A stretch of 37,318 nucleotides of DNA from a virus: positions 1-37,318 of IMG/VR virus record IMGVR_UViG_3300014904_000020; one strand, 5' to 3'. A program made the translations under genes and the position numbers. Positions 25,470-31,877 of the stretch are shown here, piece by piece. Within the stretch, counting starts at the first letter, position 1; each line of letters starts with the position of its first letter. Under the pieces are notes generated by a model. It had not been told where the DNA came from. It was given only the letters and a program-made list of their open reading frames with translations, and did no database searches.

Positions 25470-26267
25470 ATGCCTTTAGTACCTAATTTAATCAAAAGCT
25501 GGAACATCTATAAGATGACTAGCCCTACTGATAGGGTATATATTGGCGTAACTTCAAATATTACTAAAAGAAAGGCTGCATATAGTGGGTTAGATTGCAA
25601 AAGTCAGCCTTTATTGTTTAAATCAATAGAAAAATATGGGTTAAGTAATCTTAATTTTGAGATTATAGATGAATTTGATGGAACATTATCAGAAGCTAAA
25701 AGCAAAGAAATGTTTTGGATAAGGACATATATGAGCAATTATTGTAAGTATCCAGAAATGAGAGGGATGAATCTTACTGATGGAGGACAAGGGACATTAG
25801 GATATAAAGTATCAGATACTCAAAAAGAAATAATATCTAAACGAAATAAAGGATATAAACATACTGAAGAGGCTAAAAATAAAATAAGCGAGGCAGGTAA
25901 AGGGAACATGTGGAATATAGGTAAAAAAAGAACACCTGAACATATTGAATCTTTAATAAAAGCTAACATTGGCAATAAGTATAATTTAGGTAGAAAACAA
26001 TCTCAAGAAACAAAAGATAAAAGAGCAACTAAGTTAAAGGGAAAAGATAGAGGTCAAGAATATAAAAATAAATTATCTAATATATTAACAATTAAATTAG
26101 GTAAAAAAATAGAACAATACGATATTAATAATATTTTTGTAAAGGAATACGATTCAATATCTATTGCAGTAAAAGAGCTTGGAGTTTGGAGAAGTATAAT
26201 AAAACATTCTTTAAAAAACGGGACTTTCTCAACTAAATTAAAAAGTTATTTTAAATATAAAATATAA
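25470..26267 (+). CDS. GIY-YIG homing endonuclease with NUMOD DNA-binding repeats
   Basis: A 265-aa enzyme. Residues 12-30 carry the signature NIYKM ... RVYIGVTSN (GIY as Asn12-Ile13-Tyr14, YIG as Tyr24-Ile25-Gly26). Arg34 and Glu80 in EMFWI fit the catalytic Arg and Glu. Residues ~125-200 contain NUMOD3-like repeats (GYKHTEEAKNKISEAGKGN, NIGKKRTPEHIESLIKAN, NLGRKQSQETKDKRA). The end (IEQYDINNIFVKEYDSISIA) is NUMOD1-like. These parts bind DNA and the N-terminal domain nicks or cuts it. The first residues MPLVPNL are unusual for the family and resemble the start of the downstream gene (MPFIPNF), hinting at how the gene was inserted. It has its own promoter-like site. Confidence 0.9.
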   Translation: MPLVPNLIKSWNIYKMTSPTDRVYIGVTSNITKRKAAYSGLDCKSQPLLFKSIEKYGLSNLNFEIIDEFDGTLSEAKSKEMFWIRTYMSNYCKYPEMRGMNLTDGGQGTLGYKVSDTQKEIISKRNKGYKHTEEAKNKISEAGKGNMWNIGKKRTPEHIESLIKANIGNKYNLGRKQSQETKDKRATKLKGKDRGQEYKNKLSNILTIKLGKKIEQYDINNIFVKEYDSISIAVKELGVWRSIIKHSLKNGTFSTKLKSYFKYKI

Positions 26268-26270
26268 AAA

Positions 26271-26789
26271 ATGCCATTTATTCCTAATTTTACCGCATCA
26301 CAATACAGCGGCACACCTTCAATAATTACGCTAAATGACACTAGCGTAGGCTCTGATGTAACTATAGCTTCTCGTAGAGTATATTTATTGCAAGCAAATG
26401 GTACATTTTTAGTACCTGCTGGTACGACTACTGATTACATAGTATGGGATTTAGTTGATACAAGTATTGATTTAGATGTATTATCTCAAGATAGTGCATT
26501 AAGTATTACTGTTCAATGGATGAGTGGTATCAATACTGTGGTTACATCAAAAACAATTTCATTTGCATTTACTGCATACAATGAAACATTCTACTATGGT
26601 CTTACTGAAAGCCAAGTAGCAAATTCAAATTTATCCGCTAGCACGAATTGGTATCAATCAAAATTGGTTCTGAGGGTGGAACTTGATAGCGCAGATCAAA
26701 GTATTACGTTTGCTTCTGATATATATAGTGCGCAAGCAGCCTTGAATAGAGCTACATACATTAGTACAAATCAAGCTTATTTTTTCTAA
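26271..26789 (+). CDS. Beta-rich structural protein between two homing endonucleases
   Basis: A 172-aa protein that starts 3 nt after the GIY-YIG stop and ends overlapping, on the opposite strand, the stop of the HNH gene by 3 nt. The sequence is Thr/Ser-rich with long beta-strand stretches (SRRVYLLQANGTFLVPAG, SALSITVQWMSG, KLVLRVELDSADQSITFAS) and ends in a short helix plus YISTNQAYFF. It has no cysteine, signal peptide or enzyme motif. It probably belongs to the tail or fibre module whose next member is at 27526. The start MPFIPNF resembles the beginning of the upstream endonuclease. Family not recognised. Confidence 0.65.
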   Translation: MPFIPNFTASQYSGTPSIITLNDTSVGSDVTIASRRVYLLQANGTFLVPAGTTTDYIVWDLVDTSIDLDVLSQDSALSITVQWMSGINTVVTSKTISFAFTAYNETFYYGLTESQVANSNLSASTNWYQSKLVLRVELDSADQSITFASDIYSAQAALNRATYISTNQAYFF

Positions 26790-27373
26790 ATATATTTGAA
26801 TTTTAAACCTTTGTGACTAGGGTAAACGCCTCTGCAAATCCTACTAATGCTTGCTTGGTGTGTATTTAATTCTCTTGCAGCTTCACCTGCTGAATGGTAT
26901 ATGGTTCCATTATTTAAGCATAATACTTTTTTTGAGTACTTATTGTCTTTGCCTTTATTTGGATTGCAAACAACTTTTCTATTCAATACTCTATATGCAT
27001 GATAGGCATTTTCTGAACGGGTAACCCATTCAAGATTTTTAATTAAATTATCTTGTTTATTACCATTTATATGATTTACATGGGGCTTATTATTTGGATT
27101 TCCAATAAAAGCTTTTGCAACTAAAATATGGACTAATTTTAATTTTGTTTTTTTATTTTTTCTTAATCCAATCATTAAGTATTCATTAGAGCATTTTTGT
27201 ATTTTTTTAATTATTTCAGGTACAATACAACTTCCAATATGGCGTTGTATATATTTTTCAAGTCTTTTTACTCTTCCAAAATTGCTTATTTCATAAAGCC
27301 CTTCATAGTCTTTTATTTCTTCCCAAATTTCACCCTCTAAACAAGATAAATCGGTATTTTGCCAAATTTCCAT
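26786..27373 (-). CDS. NUMOD4/HNH homing endonuclease, antisense
   Basis: A 195-aa product, the only clear - strand gene. Residues ~9-34 are NUMOD4-like (EIWEEIKDYEGLYEISNFGRV seen as EGLYEISNFGRVKRL). The central HNH_3-type core is VNHINGNKQDN ... NLEWVTRSEN, with the expected His and Asn residues. The C-terminus (KKVLCLNNGTIYHSAGEAAREL ... ISRICRGVYPSHKG, read with a gap) is a NUMOD1-like DNA-binding module. The start at 27373 (MEIWQNTDL) is preferred over 27400 (MRRAFF...), because the longer version would begin inside the structured element and its U-tract. It would cut DNA at its own insertion site. It is opposite in direction to all neighbours. Confidence 0.88.
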   Translation of the reverse strand: MEIWQNTDLSCLEGEIWEEIKDYEGLYEISNFGRVKRLEKYIQRHIGSCIVPEIIKKIQKCSNEYLMIGLRKNKKTKLKLVHILVAKAFIGNPNNKPHVNHINGNKQDNLIKNLEWVTRSENAYHAYRVLNRKVVCNPNKGKDNKYSKKVLCLNNGTIYHSAGEAARELNTHQASISRICRGVYPSHKGLKFKYI

Positions 27374-27388
27374 AAATAAAATAAAAAA

Positions 27389-27469
27389 AGCCCTACGCAA
27401 GAAAGGCGGTGATGGACGCCAGTCCTGTTTCGGGCTAGGAAAAAAAGTTTATGCAACCATCACATTGCA
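27389..27469 (-). ncRNA. Unexplained structured element with two hairpins and complementary loops
   Basis: Two hairpins are seen. One has stem 27405-27408/27417-27420 (GGCG/CGCC) and loop GTGATGGA; the other has stem 27452-27456/27465-27469 (TGCAA/TTGCA) and loop CCATCACA. GTGATGG (27409-27415) and CCATCAC (27457-27463) are perfectly complementary, so the loops could kiss over 7 pairs. AGCCC (27389-27393) can pair with GGGCT (27432-27436). Read on the - strand, GGGCT is followed by a U-tract just before the HNH start, and a promoter-like TAATTTTG lies just upstream. This could be a short independent RNA or an attenuator-like leader. The strand choice is inferred; I know no matching family. 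Confidence 0.45.
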
Positions 27470-27472
27470 ATA

Positions 27473-27480
27473 CAAAATTA
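27473..27480 (-). promoter_or_regulatory. Promoter-like TAATTTTG on the - strand
   Basis: Read on the - strand, positions 27480-27473 are TAATTTTG, fitting TAnnTTTG. A start about 7 nt downstream would fall at the first hairpin of the structured element, so the site could drive that element and the HNH gene. A short AT-rich motif can easily occur by chance. Confidence 0.3.
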
Positions 27481-27503
27481 AAGAAAAATTGTCAAAAATG
27501 GCT

Positions 27504-27511
27504 TATATTTG
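27504..27511 (+). promoter_or_regulatory. Promoter-like TATATTTG before the fibre module
   Basis: TATATTTG lies 14 nt before the ATG at 27526 and supports that start over the longer frame from 27451. It would drive the adaptor and fibre genes, which have no other visible promoter until 36695. Confidence 0.5.
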
Positions 27512-27525
27512 GAAAAAGTTTTAAT

Positions 27526-28053
27526 ATGCTCAATCCTAATACGGTTGTGTCTATAGCAGAGATTTCTCAATTTTTGTGGAATGACGCAATCCCCAAGCAA
27601 AACGCTTTCTTTAATGGAAGTATTGATCCTCGTAAGGCACAACAACTTTACATGGAAAGAAAAGCATTGCAATATGGTATTGACCAAGCTTTAACAGGAT
27701 TACCTGGCACATCTAATTATGTTTATGCATTATGTGGTAGTAAGCTTCAAGTGGCAATAGAGATTTTAGGAACAGGTGGTGGTGGAGGAGGTGTTCTTCC
27801 TGGTGGAGGAGGTAACTTTACAGTATATGAATTTACAGAAAATGCAGTGGAAGGAACATATACAGTATATTTCCCAGAAGCAATTGGTAAAAGATGCGTA
27901 AACGCATTTAGACAGGGTAATAACATAGGTGCAATATTAACATCAGGGATTCCAACTGGCAATCAAGTTGTTTGGAATAAAGAAGCAGGATCATTAACAG
28001 TTGCTGTTGCTTTTTATAACCAAGAATTTTGCAGAGTTGTAGTTCAACAATAA
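27526..28053 (+). CDS. Tail fibre adaptor-like protein with Gly-rich linker
   Basis: The start at ATG 27526 (MLNPNTVVSIAEISQFLWND) gives 175 aa. An upstream ATG at 27451 would translate part of the structured element into an unlikely MQPSHCNTKLKK leader. The N-terminal ~65 residues are helical, containing DPRKAQQLYMERKALQYGID. A linker GTGGGGGGVLPGGGG (residues ~82-96) leads to a beta-rich C-terminal domain (FTVYEFTENAVEGTYTVYF ... AGSLTVAVAFYNQEF). This helix, flexible glycine hinge and beta head fits an appendage or adaptor holding the fibres encoded next. No enzyme motif. Family not recognised; role from context. Confidence 0.65.
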   Translation: MLNPNTVVSIAEISQFLWNDAIPKQNAFFNGSIDPRKAQQLYMERKALQYGIDQALTGLPGTSNYVYALCGSKLQVAIEILGTGGGGGGVLPGGGGNFTVYEFTENAVEGTYTVYFPEAIGKRCVNAFRQGNNIGAILTSGIPTGNQVVWNKEAGSLTVAVAFYNQEFCRVVVQQ

Positions 28054-28064
28054 AAAATTAACTA

Positions 28065-31000
28065 GTGGCAATTCAGAATTTAATTACTGGTGAATTTCAA
28101 TTAAGACATGAAAATGGTATCTTAGTTGCAGTAGATGGTCTTGTTTCTGCAGATACTTCAGGAACTATAGGAACATCTGGGACTTCTGGTACTAGTGGTC
28201 GTGATGGCTCTAATGGAACATCTGGTACTTCTGGAACTACTGGAACAAGCGGAACTTCAGGAACATCTGGTAAAGATGGTATTGTAGGTAGTAATGGTAC
28301 TTCAGGAACTAGTGGAACAAGTGGAATTGGTACTGATGGAACTTCTGGTACTACAGGAACTAGCGGAACGTCTGGTACTTCTGGAACTAATGGTTCTTCA
28401 GGTACTAGTGGCACTTCTGGAACAGCTGGTACAAGTGGCACAACAGGAACAAGCGGAACTTCAGGAACTACTGGAACATCTGGCACTAGCGGTACAACAG
28501 GTACTTCTGGTACTAGTGGATCAAGTGGTTTTTCAGATAGATATAGAACAAGTTCAACAACCGAATTTACTTTAGGTAATGCAGGTACTTTAATTGTTGG
28601 AACTGATTTAGCATATTCAACAGCACAATCTATTGTGGTTGTGCATAATTTAAATAACTTCCAAGAGTGTGAAGTTGTTACTTATGATCCAGTAACAGGA
28701 GAATTAGTATTTACAGCTCCTAATAGAACAGTTGGGGCAGGTACATATTCTAGTTGGACAGTAAACTTAGATGGTGCTAGTGGTGGAGATGGTAGTTCAG
28801 GTACTACAGGAACATCTGGAACGAGTGGTACAACTGGAACATCAGGTACAACTGGAACATCAGGTACTACAGGAACATCTGGTACATCAGGAACTAGTGG
28901 GACTGATGGCACTTCAGGAACAACAGGCACTTCTGGTACTACTGGAACTAGCGGAACTTCAGGCACAACAGGTACGAGTGGTACTACAGGTACTTCTGGA
29001 ACAAGTGGTACTACTGGGACTTCAGGTACTTCAGGAACAAGCGGTACAACGGGTACTTCAGGGACATCTGGAACTACAGGAACTTCTGGTACGACTGGTA
29101 CAAGTGGAACTTCTGGCACAACAGGAACATCTGGCACAACAGGCACTTCTGGATCTTCAGGAACTAGTGGTATTTCTGGTACAAGTGCTTTTAACTCAGA
29201 TAATTTTACAGCAACAGCAGGACAAACAACATTTACAGTTACCTATGGTTATCAAGTAGGAATGTTAATGGTATTTGTTAATGGTGTGCTTTTAGATAAA
29301 TTAACAGATTTTACTGCAACTGATGGTACAACAGTAGTGTTGACTAATCCAGTACAAGCAGGAGATATTATTACAATACAAAACTTTATTAGTGAATTTG
29401 TACCTATTTCTGGTACAAGTGGAACTAGTGGTACAACAGGAACTAGTGGAACTTCTGGTGTAAATGGTACATCGGGTACAACAGGAACAAGCGGACCTAG
29501 CGGTACAAGTGGCACTTCTGGAACTTCAGGTATAACGGGAACATCTGGAACTACAGGAACCAGTGGTTCATCTGGTACAACTGGTACATCGGGAACTTCA
29601 GGTTCATCTGGAACGACTGGTACTTCTGGTACTACAGGTACTTCAGGTACAACTGGTACAAGTGGAACGACTGGTACCTCTGGTACTTCAGGTACTTCCG
29701 GAACAAACGGTAGTGCTGGTACTAGTGGCACATCTGGAACAACAGGAACCTCTGGTACTACAGGTACTAGTGGAACGACCGGTACAAGCGGTACTTCAGG
29801 TATTAATGGTACAAGTGGTACAACAGGAACTTCAGGCACTAGTGGTGTAAATGGAACAAGTGGCACATCGGGTACTACTGGAACTTCAGGTACTACGGGT
29901 ACATCTGGAACTAGTGGTGTTAACGGAACAAGTGGAACCACAGGTACTTCTGGAACCACAGGAACAAGTGGCACAAGTGGAATTAATGGTACATCTGGTA
30001 CTTCAGGAATAAATGGTACTAGTGGCACTAGCGGAACCTCTGGAACTACAGGTACAAGTGGTACTTCTGGAACAGGTGTAAGTGGAGGTACTAGTGGTTA
30101 TGTTGTATTTTATACAGGAGCAACAGCAATATCTGGAGATTCTGCTCATTTTTGGGATAATACTAATAAAAGATTAGGATTAAATATTACAACGCCACAA
30201 AGAAGATTACATGTAGTTGGAAATCCTACTATTGAAGATGGTGTATTTATATCAGGCGGGGTTCCAAATTTACTGATTGGTAATAATAATGCTTATGCAT
30301 CTATAACTACAAATTTTTTAGCTGGATTAGTTACTGCTGATAGTAATTTTTTCCCAACATCTAAAGTTGGAGATTCTGTTATCGCTAGTAAAAATAATAT
30401 ATTATTTGGCACAGGTTTACTTGCAGGTCAAAATTCGGGTACAGAATATATGCGTCTTGTTAGTTCTGGAAGTGCTACTGGAGCATTGCTTATTGGAGGT
30501 ACAGCAAGTGCTGGTTATACAACTGCTTACGCTAAACTTGAAGTTTATGGACCAACTGTTACATCTGCCGATAGTGACGGAGGCGCTATGGGGGTTTTTG
30601 GTACTACAAATGTTACAGGAGGAGGAGGAGCTATTGTATTTGGTGGCTTAAATAGTGCAACACCTACTTACGCAACATGGGGCAGAATTAGAGGGGTTAA
30701 AGATAGTACAACGAGTGGAGATTATTTAGGAGGCGTATCAATTGATGTTAGGGGTGGTTCAGCTTTCTCAGAAGCAATGAATTTTGCTTCTAATAAAACT
30801 GCTACTATCTATGGAACTTTAAGAACTAATCTTGGAATTAATTTTTATTTTGATGGTACTACAAGAGGTGGTCTTTATCCTTATAAATCTATTAACGGAT
30901 CTGGGACAAATCATAATCCTACCATATTGGGAGAAGGTAGGTATGGGTTAAATTTATATGTTGATGGCGGTCTTACTAAAGGACTTACAATTGCTACATC

Positions 31001-31877
31001 TGGAGCAGCATCATTTACTTCATCAATAAACGCAGGAGGTAATATAACAGTAGCAAAAACAACTCCTGGATTAATTTTAAATGGATTAGGTTCTGGAAAT
31101 AGTGGAGCTTATATGCAACTTTTAGGATGGGCTGCCTCCAATTCTAACTGGCAATTTTCAGTAGCAACAGAGGGAGATGGTGGGTTGCATTTTATACCTT
31201 CAACAGCAGCTGGTGGATCTACTTTTACAACACCAGTAATTACTTTTTATAGTGCTGGCTCAATTAGTACATCATCATCAATTACTGTTGGAGGTATTAT
31301 AACAGTTACAGGTACAGCAACAGGTGGTAGAAGAATATTTAATTATGATGGTGGAACTGGTAATCAAAGTGGTATGGGGTTAGATATGGGTGGTAATTCT
31401 TATGAAACAGACATATTTTTTGCTTACGGTACAACAGATCAGGGAAGAACAGCTATAGGTTCATATGATGGAACGACATATAGAACTAAATTAACAGTGT
31501 ATGGTTCTGGTAATATTGGAGCCCCTACTGGATCAAATATTTATAATGCATCAGATATGAGATTAAAGAAAAATATAAATTCTTTAAATTATGGCATAAA
31601 TGATATAATGAAATTAAATCCAGTTAAATTTAATTGGATAGATGGATTTGAGCCATCAGAAGATGGAAAAGATATGTTAGGTTTTATCGCTCAACAAATA
31701 TTAGAAGTAATTCCAGAGGCTGTAGAAGATTTTGTAAAAAATGATATTATAGTTGGAAATTTAGTTGTTCATAAGCCATTAAGGGTAAATGAAAAATTTT
31801 TAATACCAGTATTGGTAAAAGGATTGCAAGATCAACAAGCACAAATAGAAGAATTAAAAAATAAGTTAAATGTCTAA
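28065..31877 (+). CDS. Collagen-like tail fibre with C-terminal S74 chaperone domain
   Basis: A 1270-aa fibre from a GTG start ([18 protein letters not shown]). Three Gly-X-Y blocks at about residues 31-156, 241-373 and 447-675 consist mainly of Gly-Thr-Ser and Gly-Thr-Thr triplets, the collagen pattern, and would form a trimeric rod. They are separated by beta domains, one a common fibre module ([18 protein letters not shown], ~380-440). A C-terminal head with LHFIPST and [11 protein letters not shown] follows. The end is a Peptidase_S74 intramolecular chaperone: Ser1163 and Lys1168 in SDMRLKKNI fit the self-cleavage dyad, then GFIAQQ and a coiled coil. It probably binds the host surface. 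The last bases overlap the next gene by 8 nt. Confidence 0.88.
28155..30095 (+). repeat. Gly-Thr-Ser triplet repeat blocks in fibre 1
   Basis: Blocks of 9-nt Gly-X-Y units, interrupted by two beta domains. Synonymous codons are mixed freely (four Gly, four Thr, both TCN and AGY Ser), so the DNA repeat is much less uniform than the protein repeat. Long Val-Pro-Glu frames on the other strand are by-products of this repeat. Confidence 0.85.

Follow-up and report, generated by a model that had tools for sequence, protein, structure and literature searches.

Our results indicate that the element at 27389-27469 of the window (the whole 37,318-nucleotide stretch of viral DNA analysed here) is genuine and conserved, that it forms a structured leader to a homing-type HNH cassette, and that it is a variation on a known regulatory theme. 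To the more specific reading, that it is the 5' leader of this mobile cassette and serves as a leaky terminator or attenuator limiting endonuclease expression, we give roughly even chances. The features concerned are listed in Table 1.

Table 1. Coordinates of the leader, the cassette and neighbouring features in the window.
Feature	Coordinates	Strand	Basis
Inserted cassette, ~736 bp, ends approximate, between two phage structural genes	26790..27525		present/empty-site comparison
NUMOD4/HNH endonuclease gene, 195 aa, ATG at 27373	26786..27373	-	
Downstream phage gene, function unassigned, beside tail-fibre-like genes	27526..28053	+	
U7 tract, terminator-like, directly 3' of P1 3' arm	27383..27389	-	sequence
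Large hairpin	27389..27436	-	MFE and centroid folds
P1, AGCCC/GGGCU	27436-27432 with 27393-27389	-	
4x4 internal loop GAAA/CGUA	between P1 and P2	-	
P2, CAGGA/UCUUG	27427-27423 with 27402-27398	-	
2x2 internal loop	between P2 and P3	-	
P3, GGCG/CGCC, 8-nt loop UCCAUCAC (27416-27409)	27420-27417 with 27408-27405	-	
P3 tip hairpin: GGCG, loop GTGATGGA, CGCC	27405-27408, 27409-27416, 27417-27420	+ (letters)	
U-rich linker joining HP1 and large hairpin	27437..27451	-	
HP1 (hairpin 1), loop UGUGAUGG (27464-27457), 7 bases complementary to P3 loop	27452..27469	-	
HP1: TGCAA, loop CCATCACA, TTGCA	27452-27456, 27457-27464, 27465-27469	+ (letters)	
TAATTTTG, match to flavobacterial -7 box	27473..27480	-	sequence
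TATATTTG box inside insert, directed outward at gene 27526	27504..27511	+	

Re-reading of the sequence placed both hairpins where the initial annotation had put them, and the seven loop bases GTGATGG (27409-27415) and CCATCAC (27457-27463) are perfect reverse complements with Watson-Crick pairing throughout. On folding, the GGCG/CGCC hairpin turned out to form just the apical helix (P3) of a longer hairpin with three helices (27436-27389). On the - strand, GGGC (27393-27390) followed by U7 (27389-27383) closes the element, leaving 9 bases up to the HNH ATG (27373), in agreement with the GGGCT and U-tract ending described earlier. The large hairpin has a GC content of 63%, against 32.6% for the 37-kb window, and is the most GC-rich of all its 46-nt segments, as expected from the previous description of a GC-rich hairpin in an AT-rich genome. 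Its folding z score was lower on the - strand (-3.66) than on the + strand (-2.12), and none of 200 shuffles was equally stable on the - strand. Each 8-nt loop leaves its first U free when the seven loop bases pair, and the isolated loop-loop duplex was computed at -9.1 kcal/mol; the fold program handles nested structures only, and the kissing contact lies outside its scores. The loop-loop contact is attractive as a hypothesis.

The element lies within an insert carried, in a presence/absence comparison among IMG/VR relatives, by the window and two other contigs, L004 and L006. About 40 related phage contigs (IMG/VR, relatives of both flanking genes) lack the cassette and have a clean empty site. 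The ATG of the second gene falls within a few bases of the first gene's stop in nearly all relatives, with empty sites such as those of L003 and L026 reading ...TTCTAAATATGTTAGATCC...; about 736 bases separate the two genes in the three carriers. The insert splits the upstream flank of gene 27526 and contains the HNH gene on the - strand, the leader upstream of it and divergent promoter-like boxes. Most genes of the window are on the + strand, and the HNH gene is antisense to its neighbours. Its product matches Pfam HNH_3 (6e-12) and NUMOD4 (5e-11) above the curated cut-offs and the HNH endonuclease family PHROG 59 (1e-44), and in L004 an in-frame stop stands immediately upstream of the equivalent ATG. 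The terminase of the window is nearest to those of Flavobacterium and Cellulophaga phages, the best matches having 28-30% identity. Judged from its sequence context, the element is part of a free-standing homing-type HNH cassette, for which cleavage of, and copying into, the empty allele are predicted. The initial annotation had proposed a small RNA, a riboswitch-like attenuator or a homing-associated structure; of these, the homing association is borne out, since the element does move together with such a cassette, and the - strand anatomy is what would be expected of an attenuator or terminator leader; no support was found for a ligand-binding riboswitch role.

Two other features of the same region were observed. 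A second homing endonuclease gene, GIY-YIG-like (25470-26267, +; PHROG 314), lies between a conserved phage promoter (25444) and gene 26271. Its protein starts with MPLVPN, copying the start of the displaced gene (MPLVPNF in L004), and it therefore seems to have captured that gene's start site. Beyond the downstream gene, a very long collagen-like GTSGTTGTS repeat protein (28065-31877, +), present in relatives too, is probably a tail fibre.

The P2 G.U pair (an A.C mismatch if read on the + strand), the U7 tract (3' of the hairpin on the - strand only), the spacing of the start box and the better z score favour the - strand as the sense strand of the element. In flavobacterial promoters a TAnnTTTG box occupies -12 to -5 (PMC9723704), and with this published spacing TAATTTTG predicts +1 at the first G of GCAAUGUGAUGG (27468). 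The L004 counterpart, TAATTTTA, is equally distant from the conserved GCAAUG, putting the predicted +1 at the first G of GCAAUG in both copies, and the single HP1 pair lost in L004 falls outside the predicted start. A promoter-like box had indeed been noted on this strand, and the hairpin that it precedes is the TGCAA one. No match to a -33 box was seen for this putative promoter, and both the tract (U5) and the box (TAATTTTA) of L004 are weaker than their counterparts in the window. The predicted product would be an RNA of ~85 nt in which HP1 is 5'-terminal and the large hairpin 3'-terminal. A terminator scan gave a match at 27407-27390 on the minus strand, where a GC-rich stem (P1 ending in GGGC) runs into U7 as in intrinsic terminators, the stem being imperfect with its 4x4 and 2x2 internal loops. 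The HNH start codon lies outside the hairpin, and the bases preceding it are unpaired in the predicted folds. In F. johnsoniae, A at -3 and -6 makes a favourable start context (PMC6847099). The HNH AUG has U at both positions, a poor context by these rules, which agrees with low expression.

On the opposite strand, the TTATATTTG motif of the box in the insert also precedes the first gene of nearly all relatives and is for this reason very probably a phage promoter; the insert appears to supply a new promoter for the gene that it displaced. The outward promoter-like box TTATATTTGG was noted at 27503-27525 (+), with an A at -3 in the start context of the downstream gene; at the empty site, gene 27526 is without an intergenic promoter of its own.

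The seven-base loop match had been described as unlikely by chance. For the match alone this was overstated, since loosely defined pairs (stems of 4 or more, loops of 7-10, within 60 bases, 7 complementary loop bases) averaged 0.84 per dinucleotide-shuffled 37-kb window, but the statement holds once stem strength, GC content and conservation are included. With the observed stem length and GC required, 0.13% of 1500 shuffled windows had such a pair. Given the large hairpin, a shuffled 37-nt leader contained a 7-nt complement to its loop in 0.19% of cases, and 15 of 2016 real 37-nt tiles of the window contained one to the P3 loop. The frequency of loose matches, as well as U7 after a GC-rich stem, would suit an ordinary terminator or insulator hairpin that stops - strand transcription and whose loop match is accidental. 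We consider this unlikely, as there is no upstream - strand gene whose transcript needs ending, the hairpin is positioned between a promoter-like box and the HNH start, and the strict loop match (0.13% per window, 0.2% given the hairpin) is kept in the homologue.

The leader is known from three contigs and two distinct sequences, since L004 and L006 do not differ from each other here; over the region they share 78% identity with the window. In the comparison of the window with L004, identity is 81-83% for the backbone genes (third codon positions 60-64%) and 61-62% for the middle and C-terminal parts of the HNH gene. Identity within the leader is 89% for the large hairpin, 94% for HP1 (17 of 18 bases) and 71% for the linker, its least conserved part (10 of 14 aligned bases), the segment borders used for these values being off by one base. 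P3 changes from GGCG/CGCC to GACA/TGTC in L004, two compensatory G-C to A-U changes that account for four of the five bases differing in the large hairpin; the fifth is in the 2x2 internal loop. At least two compensated pairs would arise from five random substitutions with P about 0.0005. P1, P2 and the loop pairing are without variation between the two distinct sequences, all 16 loop bases are identical and 7 of 7 loop-loop pairs invariant, and the internal loop GAAA/CGUA is also unchanged in L004. This comparison supports P3 as an RNA helix and constraint on the loops. The kissing of the loops has the support of sequence complementarity, and covariation speaks neither for nor against it, because the one other sequence has the same loops. 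HNH codons 1-38 are unusually conserved (third positions 84%), and part of the leader conservation may come from recent recombination of a block including these codons. The HNH gene body (26786-27373, -; L004 3279-3848, -) has ~61% DNA identity against ~89% for the first 38 codons plus leader, a contrast suggesting that the recognition part was exchanged or that recombination took place at the 5' block.

Loops conserved more than stems might also be expected of a free-standing small RNA, in which the ~85-nt RNA is itself the product, has phage or host RNAs as targets of its loops and is only carried along with the HNH gene. The predicted start at HP1 and the terminator-like end give the typical outline of such an RNA, but the mutual complementarity of the loops already explains their conservation and the element adjoins this HNH gene in every instance found, which makes this explanation quite improbable. 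It is very doubtful that the element is a DNA-level site in which the inverted GTGATGG/CCATCAC repeats, 41 bases apart and invariant in L004, bind the HNH protein or another regulator. I-TevI does autorepress through an operator at its late promoter (PMC2988022), but the P3 compensatory changes and the G.U pair indicate RNA folding, and the empty site showed no such repeats. A ligand-sensing riboswitch with the 4x4 internal loop and the loop-loop contact as its pocket is hardly credible: kissing-hairpin riboswitches such as guanidine-II are known (PMC9094411) and GAAA/CGUA is invariant, but Rfam matches are only at chance level and the element is confined to a selfish gene in one phage group, with no metabolic gene.

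A covariance search, as proposed in the initial annotation, recovered the window, L004 and L006 with model R1 and no further homologue among 47 phage records and genomes; a weak second match in L004 and L006 is the same hairpin on the opposite strand. Pattern scans of IMG/VR for separate parts of the element returned only L004, L006 and chance matches inside other sequences, and blastn with the 90-nt element against phage and plasmid records returned chance words only. No such leader was found with HNH relatives elsewhere (L035-L042, L115-L119; other phages and genomes). In the relatives L164 (1498-2019, +), L165 (1108-1623, -) and L168 (2-508, -), NUMOD4/HNH-type genes are inserted one gene further on, co-oriented with their neighbours, a few bases from the previous gene and without a structured leader. 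Rfam 15 gave no match to the window at the gathering cut-off, with sub-threshold matches up to E 10 at chance level, consistent with the earlier view that the element belongs to no known family. Other readings of short segments were rejected. AUCACCGCCUUUCU matches the 16S 3' end in 13 of 14 bases; in L004 the stem compensates but only 11 of the 14 bases still match, and the similarity was attributed to chance. The very short + strand ORF ATGGACGCC...TAG is not a credible coding sequence, 2 of its 8 residues being different in L004. At 27402-27437 (+), a Shine-Dalgarno-like AAAGGCGGTG precedes ATGGACGCCAGTCCTGTTTCGGGCTAG (8 codons), a peptide not conserved in L004.

If the element is the attenuating leader of the HNH gene, RNA polymerase would start at ~27468 on the - strand and make the 5' hairpin, the U-rich linker, the three-helix hairpin and U7 in turn. 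Leaky intrinsic termination at the large hairpin, 9 bases upstream of the HNH start codon, would stop most transcripts as the ~85-nt RNA and let few continue into the endonuclease gene. In the growing RNA, the 5' GUGAUGG would pair first with the emerging CCAUCAC, and closure of the large hairpin would displace this helix or convert it to a loop-loop kiss. The early long-range pairing might set how often the terminator forms, and the kiss might compact the short RNA. Growing-chain MFE folds of both homologues pass from HP1 to the long-range GUGAUGG/CCAUCAC helix with HP1 open (60-68 nt) and, once 72 nt are reached, to HP1 together with the large hairpin, and in this model the 7-base kiss could persist in the final form. 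Both alternative folds keep a 3' arm before the U tract, which makes an effect of the switch on termination less certain. We regard it as a tentative and rather doubtful proposal that the element represents a new class of small structured RNA, an attenuator or small RNA that contains an intramolecular 5'-3' loop kiss, travels with a homing gene and adjusts that gene's expression through strand exchange during transcription.

Several known RNAs were compared with the element. A hammerhead was rejected on sequence reading, as GAAA is present but CUGANGA and the A-U pair after stem III are not, and twister and the fluoride riboswitch were dropped on the same basis. An HDV-like nested pseudoknot was dropped because the P3 changes compensate as in a simple hairpin, although its crossing helices can be drawn. 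HEARO, or omega RNAs of IscB-IsrB, are structured RNAs beside an HNH-containing ORF, much longer and associated with RuvC-HNH proteins, whereas the protein here has only NUMOD4 and HNH_3 and the element has no Rfam match. In the ColE1 RNAI/RNAII type of interaction, hairpin loops complementary over all 7 bases form 7-bp loop-loop pairs between two RNAs, whereas the present element has both loops in a single RNA, with no sense target known. Guanidine-II (mini-ykkC) likewise has two leader hairpins with kissing loops, but its loops carry an ACGR motif with CG kissing pairs (PMC9094411). In the present element the loops are of 8 nt, 7 bases of which are complementary, and the second hairpin consists of three helices; guanidine-II was rejected as UGUGAUGG and UCCAUCAC are without ACGR and Rfam gave no match.

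The closest parallels are in homing genes of T4-like phages, which have terminators or hairpins near their 5' ends and embedded promoters for neighbours, such as hairpins at I-TevI, segB and Aeh1 mobE, 5' terminators at mobE and segF, and seg43 of Aeromonas phage 25 (PMC2988022). As in these genes, structured RNA thought to limit expression lies at the 5' end of the endonuclease gene; as in seg43, a stable upstream hairpin does not cover the ribosome site; and as in T4-type cassettes (PMC2988022), the insert appears to carry a promoter for the downstream host gene. No sequence likeness to them is shown, and the gene here is antisense to its neighbours. A T4-type hairpin sequestering the ribosome-binding site was rejected, as the stem does not reach the start region, although the same end is possible. 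Unlike the T4-type cases, the hairpin spares the start codon, ends in a U tract and is accompanied by a second, complementary-loop hairpin in a separate leader. Homing endonuclease expression must stay low enough to spare the phage, and the worked examples come mostly from T4-like phages. Flavobacteria lack Shine-Dalgarno initiation, so hiding the ribosome site would be less useful there. A separate leader with a terminator-like hairpin and loop-loop pairing is a candidate alternative RNA design for the same need in flavobacterial phages.
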